Part shown: piece after piece, positions 36,534-59,932 of the stretch
Layout of the letters: each line of letters begins with the position of its first letter
Numbering within the stretch: the stretch's first letter is position 1
Assembly: GCA_900315595.1 (NCBI GenBank)
Contig: OMZQ01000003.1
Span: forward strand, 62,001 to 126,000
DNA length: 64,000 nucleotides
DNA from: an uncultured Eubacteriales bacterium
GTDB taxonomy: Bacteria > Bacillota > Clostridia > Oscillospirales > Oscillospiraceae
Direction: 5' to 3'
Made by a program: the position numbers and the translations under genes
Notes under the pieces: generated by a model
Database searches by the model: none
Seen by the model: the letters and a program-made list of their open reading frames with translations, nothing else
What the model was told of the DNA's origin: nothing

Positions 36534-36902
36534 TCACTTTGTTGGGGGGGCGTCGTCCATCTGCATGATCAGACAGGCGCAGTAGCCGGGCGCCGGCTGG
36601 AAACAGGAGATACGAAGCATCTGTTTGACCTTGGGGCTGAGATCCACCATTTCGTGGGGGCGGCCGTTCATGGCAACGTCTGCGTAAGGGATGATCCATT
36701 TGCGGTCGCTGTTTTGGAAAACCTCATAGAACGAACTATTGATTGGCAGTTTGTCAAGGGTATTTTTCACCTTTTCCAAGGAATCTTTCTTGCCGTAGCG
36801 TTGAGATAACAAGCGAAGCAAACCAGACAAATCCAAATCCGAAGGCGATTTTGCCACGGATTTGGATTTGCCTGATTTTTTACCACTATCCACATCTTTC
36901 AA
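36534..36902 (-). pseudogene. 3' fragment of a LytTR-PAS regulator, fused to island sequence
   Basis: The last 68 codons, from NSSFYEVFQNSDRKWIIPYA to the stop at 36534, are the second half of a PAS-type domain that ends QPAPGYCACLIMQ. The matching first half is 22.7 kb away at 59,399-59,932 on the same strand. The upstream 54 codons (MKDVDSGKKSGKSKSVAKSP and on) belong to the inserted island, are AT-richer and show no PAS similarity. They only happen to be in frame. The join is at the T|G at 36740/36741. A product could still be made from the island's ATG, but the normal gene is broken. Confidence 0.85.
36729..36759. other. Left attachment site (attL)
   Basis: The host half-site GAACGAA (36729-36735) lies five bases left of the crossover T|G at 36740/36741. 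The island arm AGTTTGTCAAGG (36748-36759) lies seven bases to its right. Each half is completed at the right end of the island. Confidence 0.8.
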
Positions 36903-51405: not shown

Positions 51406-53151
51406 TCACCGGGCTGCATGGGGCAGTCTGCTTTTCTTTTGCTCCGGCTGCAGATGTTCCGATTTCTGACGATTGCGTTGATGGGTTGCGCGATCCTCCA
51501 AATCAACCTCATGAAGATCCGCATCCACTGTTGTGATTGTGTCACGCCTTGCAAAAACCGGCAGCTTTTCCGGGGAGGCCTTGCGGATCTCGTCAAAGGC
51601 AGCGTTTTCCTTTTCGAGACGGATCGCCAGACGCGCGGCGGCGAGGGCTGATTGGTCGAGAGCTTCCGCTTCGGGGCGGAGCTCGTCGAAGCGCTGCAGC
51701 TCGGAGCGGTATTCTGCCTCAAATGCGGACTCTCTCCCGGCATGATGCCGGGCCGCTGCGTCGGCAGCGGAAAGCATCTCGGAGATTTCCTTTCGCGCCT
51801 GTTTTGCAATCGCGGCGCGCTTGTTTGGCTGGGCCGCCATGCTTCGGATGGCTTCCTCCTTGGCGAAGCCCCGGAGGATGGAGGTCTCTTCGTTTTTCAG
51901 CTCCTCGATTTCCTCGGTTAGGCCCTGGATCTTTTCTGTTAGCTCCCGCTTTTTGGAAATTGCCAGCAGCGGCAGAGCGTCCCGTTCCTCGGTCAAGGCC
52001 TTGCGCTGCCTGCGCTTTGCCTGCAATGCCGTCAGCAGCTCATTGTAGCTTGCAAACATCAGCCTCGCCTTCGAAAGATAAGCTTCGGCTTTTTCCTTGT
52101 GTGTCCTGGCGTGGTTTGCGCTGAACCGCAGGACCAGCAGCCGGGCGCGGATGGATTCCAGCAGTTCGGCCATGGCCGGGATCGAGTGCTTCACCGCGTC
52201 AGTCAGCTTCGTGATTGCGGCCTTGAGCGATTTCAGCAGAGCGTTGTCCTGCTTGATTTGCCGGTTCAGCTCGCAGCGGTCCGAGACGATTCCGTTCTTT
52301 TCCAGTGCTCTTGCGACAACACCCTCGTGGATCGTGGGTTGTTCGTCCCGGCCCTGATCCGCAAAGCTGCGATGGTCGATGCGCTCCTCCCGGCCTGCTG
52401 CTTCCAGAAATCGGTTCACGTGCTCCGCCCAGGCCTCCCGCCAGAGGCAGAGCTGTTCTTCGCTGTTCCAGCGCTCGGCAATCGGGTTTTGCCTTCCGTA
52501 CTTGGTACTCTTCGGGTACTTTGATGCACGCTCAAGGTCCTGAGCCTCAGCGGCAGAGGGCGTCATGTAAACCTTCTTTTTGCCGACCTTATACGGATAT
52601 TGCTTCTCCCAGCCGTCATGCTGTGCCGTTTTGAACTCTGACGCGGTGAAGCCTTTTTCGATTCCATCCTTCACGCAGAGATATTCTTTTTCCGTTTTCG
52701 CCTGCCAAGTGCCGTCGGGATTCAACGGACGTACCGTCAGCAGAATATGCGCGTGGGGGTTGTGCCCGTCGGTGTCGTGGATCGCCATGTCAGCGCACAT
52801 GCCCTGAGCTACAAACTGCGTTTGAATAAACTCCGACAGGAGCCGCATCCATTCCGTTTTGCCCAGCTCCACCGGCAGGGCCACAACAAATTCCCGGGCC
52901 AGCCTGCTGTCCTTCGTCTTCTCCGCCGCCTCCACGGCATTCCAGAACGTTTCCCGGTTTTTCCATTCCGGCGGCGCATTGGGCGGAAGAAAAACCTGTT
53001 GCGCGACCAATCCGCGTTTGCGGGTATAGTCATGCTGCACGCCGTCATAATTGTTGTAGATCCTGGAACAGCTCAGATAGGCTGCCGCTGCGCAGGCGGA
53101 CCGTCCCGCCCCGCGACTGACGACCTTTGCCTCCAGGTGGTAAATTGCCAT
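51406..53151 (-). CDS. MobA/MobL (MobQ-type) relaxase
   Basis: The 581-residue protein has an N-terminal relaxase domain. It starts MAIYHLEAKVVSRGAGRSAC, with the catalytic Tyr likely in AAAYLS near residue 25 and the metal-binding H-x-D region AIHDTDGHNPHAHILLTVRP near residue 145. The C-terminal half is a long coiled coil (about residues 290-560). MobQ relaxases nick oriT and pilot the strand into a conjugative pore supplied by another element. It ends close to the Fur-box promoter and starts 380 bases from the oriT. Confidence 0.92.
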   Translation of the reverse strand: MAIYHLEAKVVSRGAGRSACAAAAYLSCSRIYNNYDGVQHDYTRKRGLVAQQVFLPPNAPPEWKNRETFWNAVEAAEKTKDSRLAREFVVALPVELGKTEWMRLLSEFIQTQFVAQGMCADMAIHDTDGHNPHAHILLTVRPLNPDGTWQAKTEKEYLCVKDGIEKGFTASEFKTAQHDGWEKQYPYKVGKKKVYMTPSAAEAQDLERASKYPKSTKYGRQNPIAERWNSEEQLCLWREAWAEHVNRFLEAAGREERIDHRSFADQGRDEQPTIHEGVVARALEKNGIVSDRCELNRQIKQDNALLKSLKAAITKLTDAVKHSIPAMAELLESIRARLLVLRFSANHARTHKEKAEAYLSKARLMFASYNELLTALQAKRRQRKALTEERDALPLLAISKKRELTEKIQGLTEEIEELKNEETSILRGFAKEEAIRSMAAQPNKRAAIAKQARKEISEMLSAADAAARHHAGRESAFEAEYRSELQRFDELRPEAEALDQSALAAARLAIRLEKENAAFDEIRKASPEKLPVFARRDTITTVDADLHEVDLEDRATHQRNRQKSEHLQPEQKKSRLPHAAR

Positions 53152-53416: not shown

Positions 53417-53534
53417 CGACAGCTGCGCGGACGAGAGGAGCGCAGCCCGCATCGTCCGTCGTTCTCCGCATAGAACGAAATCCGCCTCGCAGAGCGCACG
53501 GCCCGATTGGGTGGGTACCACCCGGTCGGGATAC

Positions 53535-53586
53535 CACCACCTCCAAAATGCAGCGCATTTCGGAGGTGGTGAGTAAGTGCGCCCTT
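53535..53586 (+). other. Origin of transfer (oriT), RSF1010/R1162 type
   Basis: An inverted repeat, CACCACCTCC / GGAGGTGGTG at 53535-53571 with an inner ATGC/GCAT pairing, is followed two bases later by TAAGTGCGCCCT (53574-53585). This is the nic-region sequence of IncQ plasmids (RSF1010, R1162) and pSC101, in the same layout as R1162: hairpin, then core. The MobA/MobL relaxase encoded nearby is the matching family. The exact nick is inferred to lie in or just after the core. Confidence 0.85.
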
Positions 53587-53729
53587 CGGGAAAAAGAAAC
53601 TGACGGGACAGCCTGCTTCCCAGCCATCCCGCCGCGTTGGATTTCGCGCCGTTTTCCGTTTTTCGTCTTCTGTCGCAATTCTGGTCGCTGCAGGTTTGAA
53701 TTCCTGCCGCAACAACAAAAGAACCGTTT

Positions 53730-53963
53730 TCAAGACAAGTCACCCCGCAGCTCCAGCGCCTTCGTGATCTTCGTCAGAAATGTCTCTAACTCCGCCAAGG
53801 TCATCCCGTTCGTGAACGGCATCGCTTTCTCAACAATTGCACCCTTCTGAATTAAGCGCCTCGTCCGTTCCTTCCGCTCCCGCACACGGTCCCGTGCCTG
53901 GGCTTCCTCATAACGGTGGCGCATTTGCATAAGTTCCTTCTGGAGGTCCGTTGGTTTATCCAT
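53730..53963 (-). CDS. DUF3847-like small mobile-element protein
   Basis: The 77-residue protein (MDKPTDLQKELMQMRHRYEE at the N-terminus, ending ITKALELRGDLS) is a charged helical protein of the kind annotated DUF3847 in clostridial mobilizable and conjugative elements, usually near relaxases. The ATG at 53963 has AAAGGGG a few bases upstream. It lies between the recombinase terminator and the oriT. An accessory role in mobilization is possible; no function is known. Confidence 0.75.
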   Translation of the reverse strand: MDKPTDLQKELMQMRHRYEEAQARDRVRERKERTRRLIQKGAIVEKAMPFTNGMTLAELETFLTKITKALELRGDLS

Positions 53964-53995
53964 GATTTTAAAGTCCCCTTTCCTGTAAAAATGCA

Positions 53996-54039
53996 AAACG
54001 GGCCGCAAGGGAATTGCTTCATCCCCTTGCAGCCCGTTT
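53996..54039 (-). terminator. Terminator after the serine recombinase gene
   Basis: AAACGGGC and GCAAGGG pair with CCCTTGC and GCCCGTTT around a loop. On the minus strand TTTTGCATTTTT follows. Confidence 0.85.
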
Positions 54040-54051
54040 GCTGTCGTTTTG

Positions 54052-55863
54052 TTATTCTGTTGTCGCCGGGAGTTCCGCTTCTGCTAATGCCGCAGCTGCT
54101 GCCTCCGCTGCTTCCTTCGCTTTTCGCTCCTTGCGCCGGTAATACTTTTCCCGATTCGCTGCCCGCTTCTTTCGCTCAGCCTCCAGCTGTGCCAGCTCCT
54201 CCGGGGTGGGCTCTGGCGTCGGCACCTCAAAGCGCCCGATGAAGTTCAGATAGATCTCCACCTCCTGGCAGCGGTCACCGTACTCGTCCTTCGTCGGAGC
54301 GTGCACCAGGATGCGATCAATGAACTCGTTGATCATGGGCGTGGTCAGCTCCGTGAAGTCCCGGTACTTTTTTGCCAAAGCCAGAAACTGCTCCACACGA
54401 TCTGTGTCAGCCTCATAAGCCGCAATCTGTGATTCTTCGGAGGCGATCAGCTTTTCCAGCCCGGCCTGCTCAGCTTCGTATTCCTCAGACAAGGCCTTGT
54501 AGCGCTTTTCGGGAAGATCCTCCAGCACGTAGGATTCATACAGCTTTTTCAGCAGCCGGTCCAGCTCCTTGCAGCGCTTTTTCGCCCTCTGCACCTTGCG
54601 TCGAAGCTCCTTTGCGGAAGCCTCCTGCCGAATGCTGGAAGCCTCCCGGACCTTCCGCACGAATTCCGCTTCATTCTGAATGGCGTAAACGCTGACTGTG
54701 CGAATTGTTTCCAGAATCAGTTGCCGCAGCGCCTTTGTACTGATTTGATGAGAACAGCATTCGTTGCGCTCATGTTCCATGGTCATTTTATAGGTGGAGC
54801 AGTTGTATCCATCTATAAAATATATCTTACCATTTGCGCCGGTTCTCCTGATACGGTGGTTGTACATCTTTCTTCCGCAGTCTGCGCAAAACACCAATCC
54901 CGTCAGGGGATTTGCTTCGCCAATTGTATCTGTCCTCCGCCTGGTTTTGCATACTTTCTGTGCGATGTCCCATGTCTCCTGATCAATAATTGCCTCATGC
55001 ATGTTTTCAAAAATGGCCCACTCCGACGGCTCATTCATAATTCGTTTGTCCTTGTAGGATTCTTTAGAGGATCGGAAATTGACTGTATGGCCTAAGTATT
55101 CCGGCTTCGAGAGAATACGCCTTACAGTATAGCTGTACCAATCGTGCGGCCTACTCATGTCGTAGGTGTTCCGATGCGCACCAATTCCTCTAATTGCAAG
55201 ATAATATCCGGGACACTCAATCTTCTCCGCAGTAAGCTGTTTCGCTATTTCATATGGACCTTTTCCGTTGACTGCAAGTTGATAAATCTTTCGGACAACC
55301 GCCGCTGCCTCTGGATCAATGATCCAGCGATTCTTATCCTCCGGGTCCTTCTTGTAGCCATAAATCGGCGTGTTTGTAATTGGCTTCCCGGATTTGCCCT
55401 TGACCTTGTATGCCGCTTTGATTTTTCGGCTCTGGTCCCGCAGATACCACTCGTTCATGATATTCAGAAACGGCGCGAACTCGCTGCTGTTCTGGTCCTC
55501 GCTGTCCACGTTATTTGCGACAGCAATAAAATGAACCCCATGCTCCCGGAAGAATACCTCAGTGTAGAAGCCCGTCTGCAGATAGTTTCTGCCGATCCGG
55601 CTCATGTCCTTGACCAGCACGGTTCCGACCTTCCCGGCCTCAATGTCCGCGATCAACCGCTTCCAGTCCGGGCGGTCGAAGTTGCCGCCGGACCAGCCGT
55701 CGTCGGTATAGTGGTGCAGGTTCGTGTAGCCGTGCTGTGTGGCGTAGGTTTCGAGGTAAAGCTTCTGGTTTGCAATGGAGCTTGAGTCGCCCGACAGCTC
55801 ATCGTCGCGCGACAGCCGCTCATAGAGAGCGGTGATCTTTTCTTCCGTCTGTCTGCTGGTCAT
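54052..55863 (-). CDS. Large serine recombinase (TnpX-like, DUF4368-type)
   Basis: The 603-residue protein has a resolvase catalytic domain (residues about 10-160) with catalytic Ser18 in ALYERLSRDDELSGDS and the RIGRNYLQTG segment. A recombinase domain follows (about 190-310), then a zinc-ribbon region (GLVFCADCGRKMYNHR near 330, CCSHQ near 390), a coiled coil, and an acidic/alanine-rich tail. Such enzymes integrate and excise elements at short core sites. It is the only site-specific recombinase in the island and thus the likely integrase. AAAGGAG precedes the ATG. Confidence 0.94.
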   Translation of the reverse strand: MTSRQTEEKITALYERLSRDDELSGDSSSIANQKLYLETYATQHGYTNLHHYTDDGWSGGNFDRPDWKRLIADIEAGKVGTVLVKDMSRIGRNYLQTGFYTEVFFREHGVHFIAVANNVDSEDQNSSEFAPFLNIMNEWYLRDQSRKIKAAYKVKGKSGKPITNTPIYGYKKDPEDKNRWIIDPEAAAVVRKIYQLAVNGKGPYEIAKQLTAEKIECPGYYLAIRGIGAHRNTYDMSRPHDWYSYTVRRILSKPEYLGHTVNFRSSKESYKDKRIMNEPSEWAIFENMHEAIIDQETWDIAQKVCKTRRRTDTIGEANPLTGLVFCADCGRKMYNHRIRRTGANGKIYFIDGYNCSTYKMTMEHERNECCSHQISTKALRQLILETIRTVSVYAIQNEAEFVRKVREASSIRQEASAKELRRKVQRAKKRCKELDRLLKKLYESYVLEDLPEKRYKALSEEYEAEQAGLEKLIASEESQIAAYEADTDRVEQFLALAKKYRDFTELTTPMINEFIDRILVHAPTKDEYGDRCQEVEIYLNFIGRFEVPTPEPTPEELAQLEAERKKRAANREKYYRRKERKAKEAAEAAAAALAEAELPATTE

Positions 55864-56072
55864 ACCTGACTCCTTTCAGACTGACGGCTCATTTGTGGCA
55901 CGTTCAGTATAGCACATTTTGACTCCGATTCCAACCCTTCATTTTGAATTAAGTGAAAAATCTTGTCCTCGAAGGTCTCCGCCGCGTTCTCGCTGAAATG
56001 GGCGTTGACCCGGTAATTGGTCGAGCCGATCCGTCGGCTCAAGGTAAAGGTGTTGCTGGGTGTTTTCTCCAT
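55860..56072 (-). CDS. TnpW-like transposon protein
   Basis: The 70-residue protein starts MEKTPSNTFTLSRRIGSTNY and continues RVNAHFSENAAETFEDKIFH, matching the small TnpW proteins found with TnpX-type recombinases. AAAGGAG is five bases before the ATG at 56072. Its stop overlaps the recombinase start (ATGA), so the two are coupled. A longer upstream reading frame is rejected because it passes through a strong ribosome-binding site. Confidence 0.85.
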   Translation of the reverse strand: MEKTPSNTFTLSRRIGSTNYRVNAHFSENAAETFEDKIFHLIQNEGLESESKCAILNVPQMSRQSERSQV

Positions 56073-56125
56073 AGAGCTCCTTTCCGCGCATGCTGCGCTC
56101 TGTAATGATGTGTTTGGTGTTGTAA

Positions 56126-56220
56126 TTACATTGCGTTTGCCTCCTTGCAAAGTCGTTTTGATTTGGATGGATAGAGTAGATTTCCGGTATAAACGGCCTT
56201 GCTCAAATTGTGATAACCAT
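56126..56220 (-). other. Two miniature ORFs in the leader of tnpW-recombinase
   Basis: On the minus strand AAAGGAGG precedes ATG-GTT-ATC-ACA-ATT-TGA (56220-56203, peptide MVITI). Further down AAGGAGG (56146-56140) precedes ATG directly followed by TAA (56131-56126), a start-stop pair. Both have ideal ribosome-binding sites. They may set translation or attenuation of the downstream recombinase genes. Confidence 0.5.
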
Positions 56221-58718: not shown

Positions 58719-59174
58719 TCAGGCGAATACGTATTCCCGCAGGACGATTTCTTCCGCACGGTTTTGAATCGAGTTCATCCGGGCCACCCACGCCATGGGA
58801 TCGGCAGCTTTGAGCGCCTCGCTGACGCCTTCGCGCTCGGCAATCTGTGCGGTCATTTCTTCCACCTGTCGGGTGCAGACTTCGTTAACCTCCGACAAGT
58901 GTTTATACAGCTTCGCAGATCGGACCAGCTCCGCATACAACACCGGCCGATGCTCCTTGAGATACGTCTTACGCATCAGACCATACTTGCCGATCCAACT
59001 GCCAATCGTTTCCTTGTCAACAGCATCGGAAGCTTGGCGATCCTCCTGCCGCACTTCCTGCTTCGTACTGCATTCGTTTCCAGCCCTCTTTGTCAGCATA
59101 ATGTCATTGTTCGGAAGATCATAGTCTCCGACTCTGGAATACGTTCCGCCCAACTGCTCATAGATTGATTTCAT
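58719..59174 (-). CDS. TnpV-family transposon protein
   Basis: The 151-residue protein begins MKSIYEQLGGTYSRVGDYDL and contains KTYLKEHRPVLYAELVRSAK and EMTAQIAEREGVSEALKAAD, then WVARMNSIQNRAEEIVLREY. This is the full TnpV pattern found in clostridial elements with large serine recombinases. AAAGGAG is seven bases before the ATG at 59174. Its function is not established. It is the last gene at the right end of the island. Confidence 0.9.
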   Translation of the reverse strand: MKSIYEQLGGTYSRVGDYDLPNNDIMLTKRAGNECSTKQEVRQEDRQASDAVDKETIGSWIGKYGLMRKTYLKEHRPVLYAELVRSAKLYKHLSEVNEVCTRQVEEMTAQIAEREGVSEALKAADPMAWVARMNSIQNRAEEIVLREYVFA

Positions 59175-59351
59175 AATGGCTCCTTTCGTGTCAAATGCTT
59201 CCTTACAGCTTGCTCCGTCTTCACGTGTCTTTTGAGTCAAGCTCCAAAGCGCGAAAGCAAGCTGTCCTCCCAGTCGCGAGAATACGTGCTTTCGCACAAC
59301 CTCCTTTCCCACGACTGTTTCTCACATTTGCCACAAATGAGCCGCCAGTCG

Positions 59352-59397
59352 TGGTGTAGTTTATGAAGGATAAAACCTTCCTTTATAAACTACACCA
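59352..59397. repeat. Inverted repeat at the right end of the island
   Basis: TGGTGTAGTTTATGAAGG (59352-59369) and CCTTTATAAACTACACCA (59380-59397) form an 18-bp inverted repeat with one mismatch and a ten-base loop. The right arm is the attP arm next to the crossover, so the left arm is a second, inverted copy of that recombinase-binding sequence. Confidence 0.8.
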
Positions 59398-59410
59398 TGA
59401 GCATTCGTTC
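59380..59410. other. Right attachment site (attR)
   Basis: The island arm CCTTTATAAACT (59380-59391) lies seven bases left of the crossover T|G at 59398/59399. The host half-site TTCGTTC (59404-59410) lies to its right. Together with the left site it completes the symmetric attB and attP. Confidence 0.8.
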
Positions 59411-59932
59411 GACGGCAACTCCCTTCAGCAACTCCATCGCCTTGTTGCAGTAGCGGAACACGAAGTCCACGCCGCGCCCGGCCGGGTCAAATACCAGCTC
59501 CAGCAGACAAAAAGGGTTCGGCGCGTTGTCCATGATGGAGCAGCGCTCCGGCAGGCTCTGCGGGATCTCCGGCTGCGTCCGCGCGGATGCGGCAAAGCGC
59601 GTATCAAGCTGAATGGCACGCCGCTTGTGCTCGGCCGGATTCCGGCCCCGTCCCTGGAACTGCTGTCCGTCCACCATGGTATACAGGCCCTTGCCCTCGA
59701 TGGAAACCACGTACCGCTTAGCGACCACGACGCCCTTTTGGATGCTCCAAAAGTCGTCCGCCGGGAAGCAGGCCGTCACGGTTTTCATCGGAACTGGCGT
59801 GGGAATGACCCGCCGATCCTGCAAATGCAACAGGGTCCGCTGGCCCTCATGGGTCAAATAGAGAATGTCCCCAACCTTGAAGTGATGCCGCTTGAGCATA
59901 CGCTCGATACGACCATTCGTGCAATCACTCAT
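59390..59932 (-). pseudogene. 5' part of the LytTR-PAS regulator, interrupted by the island
   Basis: The 180-codon frame encodes a LytTR-like DNA-binding domain (residues about 20-110; VGDILYLTHEGQRTLLHLQD, then FWSIQKGVVVAKRYVVSIEG and YTMVDGQQFQGRGRN). The first half of a PAS-type domain follows (FCLLELVFDPAGRGVDFVFR to VERML). At codon 178 host sequence ends; two island codons (MV) and a TAG follow. The missing part, NSSFYEVF onward, is at 36,534-36,740. The DNA-binding part is whole, so a truncated regulator may still be made. GGAGG lies ten bases before the ATG. Confidence 0.85.

Follow-up and report, generated by a model that had tools for sequence, protein, structure and literature searches.

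The window considered here, that is the whole stretch of 64,000 nucleotides, includes an inserted island in which an inverted repeat directly precedes a 12-nt sequence identical to the nic core of RSF1010/R1162. Is this locus an origin of transfer and, if so, which relaxase starts from it and whose machinery carries the strand away? According to the data presented below, the region 53484–53590 can with high confidence be regarded as an oriT that belongs to the IncQ/MOBQ nic family and is carried by an integrative and mobilizable element (IME). Judging from its sequence context, the site is almost certainly the nick start used by the island's own relaxase for helper-borne transfer.

Architecture of the nic region

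The nic core TAAGTGCGCCCT occupies positions 53574–53585 of the plus strand as an exact match. Since RSF1010 is cleaved at TAAGTGCG/CCCTCCC (PMC4814116), the nick within TAAGTGCG^CCCT is predicted between 53581 and 53582 of the same strand. Only 2 nt separate the core from hairpin 2 (CACCACCTCCAAAATGC / GCATTTCGGAGGTGGTG, plus strand, 53535–53571), whose 17-nt arms (53535–53551 and 53555–53571) are 94% complementary and enclose a 3-nt loop. Besides the inverted repeat itself and the covariation of arms described below, this hairpin is supported by the DNA fold of region 53500–53600 (−30 kcal/mol, z −6.3), which was equalled in none of 200 shuffled sequences, as was the stem adjoining the core (0/200). 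The hairpin-preceded core noted at 53535–53586 in the preliminary description is thus real. Further upstream on the plus strand lie hairpin 1 (CCCGATTGGGTGG / CCACCCGGTCGGG, 53502–53530), which corresponds in position to the RSF1010 region CGCCCGAAGGGTGG, and the box GCCTCGCAGAGCGCAC (53484–53499).

The 12-mer is expected by chance 0.009 times per 64 kb and 0.34 times per 2.4-Mb genome, and was found once in the genome assembly, so that at genome scale and taken alone it is weak evidence. It is the position of the core, the adjacent stem and conservation in relatives that make a chance origin untenable.

An IncQ1 plasmid of E. coli (L154) was used as the RSF1010-type reference. Ahead of its core it has, in this order, CCCTCGGAGAGCGCAC, CGCCCGAAGGGTGG, CCAGTTTCTCGAAGAGAAACCGG and then TAAGTGCGCCC, so that the 16-nt box CCCTCGGAGAGCGCAC sits upstream of two hairpins. 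The copy in the window matches this box in 14 of 16 positions, six related clostridial site groups match it in all 16, and a score of at least 11/16 was registered at 23 of 38 sites, while 2.3 were expected from shuffles. In R1162 the box lies outside the minimal oriT. Its GCGCAC is complementary to GTGCGC in the nic core, and a closing stem around the hairpins, full or partial, appears in the folds of the window, the RSF1010-type plasmid and most relatives; because the core is invariant, covariation is uninformative about this stem, and the box may just as well be recognised by a protein.

Altogether the island shares with RSF1010/R1162 the identical 12-nt core, the hairpin just 5′ of it, a second hairpin region, a small, probably MobC-like protein and, as predicted, mobilizability without an own type IV secretion system (T4SS). 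The IncQ assignment of the preliminary description finds a fuller match than had been claimed, as the 16-nt box, both hairpins and the probable MobC-like neighbour join the core. There are also differences. The hairpin sequences are unlike, and when plasmids were searched with the complete oriT region (141 nt), chance-level matches only were obtained. The small gene is co-directional with the relaxase gene, whereas mobC and mobA of RSF1010 are divergent; a RepB primase fusion was not seen on the island relaxase, unlike RSF1010; and the island is integrated by means of a serine recombinase, while RSF1010 replicates as a plasmid.

The relaxase and its neighbours

The relaxase of 581 aa (51406–53151, minus strand) belongs to the MobQ family of MobA/MobL proteins: it scores 298 bits with Pfam PF03389 and 250 bits with the MobQ equivalog NF041496 of NCBIfam (cut-off 200). 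Tyr25, His125, His133 and His135 are all in place, and the catalytic residues of MOBQ4 have been given with the same numbering (PMC6856555). The start of hairpin 2 (53535) lies 384 bp from the start codon (53151), which agrees with the 380 bp indicated earlier, and from the predicted nick to this codon there are about 430 bp. No second MobA/MobL gene was detected in the assembly, and this one stands next to the sole 12-mer core.

Among solved structures the closest relative is NES of the staphylococcal plasmids pSK41/pGO1 (4HT4, 1e-26), followed at greater distance by RSF1010 MobA (2NS6, 9e-13). The oddity that the preliminary description implied for a Gram-positive host is not supported, since IncQ-type relaxases of pGO1, pSK41, pIP501 and pMRC01 are established in Gram-positives (PMC4981023). 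In pSK41 the core TAAGTGCGCCCTTACGGGA is also preceded by a hairpin on its 5′ side, and the polarity is the same: oriT (plus) is placed just outside the relaxase gene, which lies on the opposite strand (minus). However, pSK41 is self-conjugative with its own T4SS, unlike the island, where none was recognised, and it lacks the extended CCCTCGGAGAGCGCAC box (8/16), retaining only GCAC before the hairpin. More than 1000 plasmid records, nearly all of them staphylococcal, gave a full or partial match to the oriT query from pSK41. TraA of pIP501 (MOBQ3) is another IncQ-type relaxase from a Gram-positive and nicks its nic site at GpC (PMC4981023); pIP501 is conjugative, unlike the island, and the comparison covers relaxase type and nick position. 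A consensus like TAAGTGCGCCCTTA has been quoted for Gram-positive oriTs (PMC10333310), and MobQ IMEs are included among canonical IMEs (PMC5704250). With such oriTs, relaxases and IMEs already established, both the site and the element belong to a known kind. Interest is added by the unexpectedly full RSF1010-like architecture, by the MobC proposal made below for the DUF3847 protein, and by half-swapped and orphan sites.

Between oriT and the recombinase gene there is a DUF3847 protein (53730–54008, minus strand), a probable MobC-like relaxosome accessory. Its Pfam match (E 1e-9, 38.5 bits) is slightly below the cut-off of 40. Its composition is charged, and compared with RSF1010 MobC it gave z 8.0 over shuffles, with z 3.9–6.5 for its relatives, and 1e-5 in a single BLASTP comparison; profile comparison by hhalign was weak (probability 18.6%). 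No relationship was detected with the small open reading frame beside the pSK41 oriT, and DUF3847 is mentioned in no paper within the literature searched. We propose for it a MobC-like function.

Recurrence of the site across Clostridia

Relatives were found by scanning genome contigs with the relaxase sequence. In L003–L010, 47–59% relatives with the relaxase N-terminus, the core is close upstream of the relaxase gene in all eight cases, and a DUF3847 gene is also present in seven, the exception being L006, where the contig end is reached. In mostly alphaproteobacterial TraA-like relatives the core is absent, bar one unrelated occurrence. A search for the hairpin-core in other islands with this relaxase had been suggested as a check. 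Core and covarying hairpin were found again next to related relaxases in various Clostridia: among family genomes pattern GGTGGTGNNTAAGTGCGCCCT was registered in 13 of 150, and among class genomes pattern GGTGNNTAAGTGCGCCCT in 20 of 391, with 0 for the reversed-pattern control in both cases.

The core remains constant while hairpin sequences differ from site to site with pairing retained and with a spacing of 1–2 nt to the core. In a permutation assay with arms of 9–10 nt a site's own upstream partner fitted better than those of other sites (0/5000), and a separate earlier arm-partner test gave 3/10000. When the arms were set at 11 nt the outcome was blurred, as stems shorter than this were extended into the loop, and the assay was rerun with arms of 6–10 nt; the effect was clear at 9–10 nt and weak for some settings of 6–7 nt. 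Sites of the second subtype (GGTGTATAAG) have C-G, A-T, G-C or T-A as their innermost pair. Since the sites are related to each other, such counts are inflated, and they should be taken as strong, not exact. GGTGTA sites are mostly found beside relaxases 32–54% identical to that of the island, and GGTGAG sites beside those with 56–74%; site subtype thus largely follows the relaxase group.

At some sites (L006, L065/L076, L067/L077 and L118/L119/L121/L135) the core is kept and the core-adjacent hairpin is absent. L006:46, L076:3071, L077:13700, L118, L119, L121 and L135 share the core and its right side and have a different left half, and genome G193 carries both left-half forms (L117 and L135). 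To judge from the sequences, this swap of left halves looks like exchange at the core. There are also orphan oriT copies without a nearby MobA/MobL gene (L073:5516, L074:907 and L075:298). The genomes of L074 and L075 gave no MobA/MobL match, and no terminal repeat was seen on the orphan contigs. Relics and oriT-only elements are candidate readings of these copies.

The island and its candidate helper

The approximate ends of the island (36740–59400) are given by a split LytTR-like gene, whose N-terminal part (59402–59932) and C-terminal part (36534–36740) are now about 22.7 kb apart, and the insert is lower in GC than its flanks. Another genome from the same genus has an intact LytTR-like homologue of 239 aa (L110:7885–8604), with similar sequence continuing past its stop codon. 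A mechanical search revealed no direct repeats longer than 8 nt at the ends, and no empty site spanning both of them could be read, as G153 and G154 have the CmpB flank only; in G154 a tRNA-like sequence adjoins this flank. At the right end there is an inverted repeat with 22-nt arms (59349–59400), which may contribute to the attachment site of the recombinase.

The right 8 kb of the island carry relaxase, oriT and DUF3847, followed by a large serine recombinase for integration and excision (54052–55863, minus strand; Pfam Resolvase, Recombinase, Zn_ribbon_recom and DUF4368), a TnpW-family protein (55860–56150, minus; PF14202), a sigma-like protein, an HTH protein and a TnpV-family protein (58719–59312, minus; PF14198, C-terminal part matched). 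The left 14.5 kb contain acyltransferase, glycosyltransferase, diacylglycerol-kinase-like, radical SAM, two-component, DegV and thioesterase genes. The insert may represent a single unit or two events nested in each other. Tn4451-like clostridial IMEs share the large serine recombinase with nearby TnpV/TnpW-family proteins; the mobilisation gene of Tn4451 is from another relaxase family, while that of the island is MobQ. As far as its genes tell, the island is a canonical integrative and mobilizable element.

No T4SS families were recognised among the scanned island proteins, in line with the preliminary description, and with an own relaxase and recombinase the best reading is mobilisation in trans. 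The sole type IV coupling protein (T4CP) found in the genome is encoded on contig C37 (L146, 20001–40000) together with a VirB4-like ATPase, PrgI, TrbL, Maff2, NlpC/P60, topoisomerase, ArdC and sortase genes. The island may find its helper in this conjugation cluster, which was detected with PF19044 and PF02534 and missed by the VirB4 model PF12846. Elsewhere in the assembly, contigs C22 and C25 carry two relaxases of the Pfam Relaxase family.

Alternative readings

One can suppose that the inverted repeat is mainly an operator or terminator of the relaxase operon and that the match to the core is incidental, as dyads often act in this way. A terminator would hardly be followed as here, where no T run comes after hairpin 2 and its place is taken by the nic core, and a purely regulatory dyad does not fit with a fixed core, variable hairpin sequences and a spacing of 1–2 nt held across Clostridia. 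We consider this explanation very unlikely. In RSF1010, MobA and MobC control promoters with which oriT overlaps (PMC2200642), so that a regulatory role may be additional. It is likewise highly improbable that the relaxase uses another site and that this oriT serves a relaxase given in trans. There are precedents for oriT-only elements that rely on a relaxase provided in trans (PMC4652767, PMC11389934), and the present site, too, has orphan copies; however, the genome has a single MobA/MobL gene and a single core, which are adjacent, and relaxase group and site subtype largely go together.

A more serious alternative, if still an unlikely one, is that oriT is real by descent and the island is now unable to excise or transfer. 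The split host gene, the ~14.5 kb of ordinary-looking genes on the left side, the ends without clear repeats and the relaxase-less copies of the same oriT in L073, L074 and L075 all speak for such decay. Against it, the relaxase, the DUF3847 protein and the recombinase have full-length open frames with motifs intact, and the core and hairpin of oriT are intact as well.

Proposed mechanism and implications

If the site is the oriT of a mobilizable island, as we prefer, transfer may proceed as follows; nicking, polarity, accessory role and helper use are inferred from the biochemistry of RSF1010, pSK41 and pIP501. The serine recombinase would excise and circularise the island, and the MobQ relaxase, aided by the DUF3847/MobC-like protein, would bind the hairpin, nick the plus strand at 53581|53582 and stay on the 5′ end via Tyr25. 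The strand is expected to exit rightwards from 53582, so that the relaxase gene would be the last to enter the recipient. Coupling protein and T4SS of the helper element would pump the strand into the recipient, where the hairpin may serve re-joining of the ends.

The finding supplies a testable oriT for serine-recombinase islands found across Clostridia, and the short pattern can locate such islands as well as relaxase-less copies. The box common to the clostridial sites and RSF1010 suggests that this portion of oriT is conserved between phyla. Tentatively, it is possible that a complete RSF1010-like relaxosome module (box, two hairpins, nic core, MobC and MobA) is common to Proteobacteria and clostridial IMEs, that a conserved GCGCAC/GTGCGC closing stem forms a three-way junction controlling nicking, and that DUF3847 is the clostridial MobC. 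If this were true, half-swapped sites and orphan copies would serve gut Clostridia as a mix-and-match currency of mobilisation.
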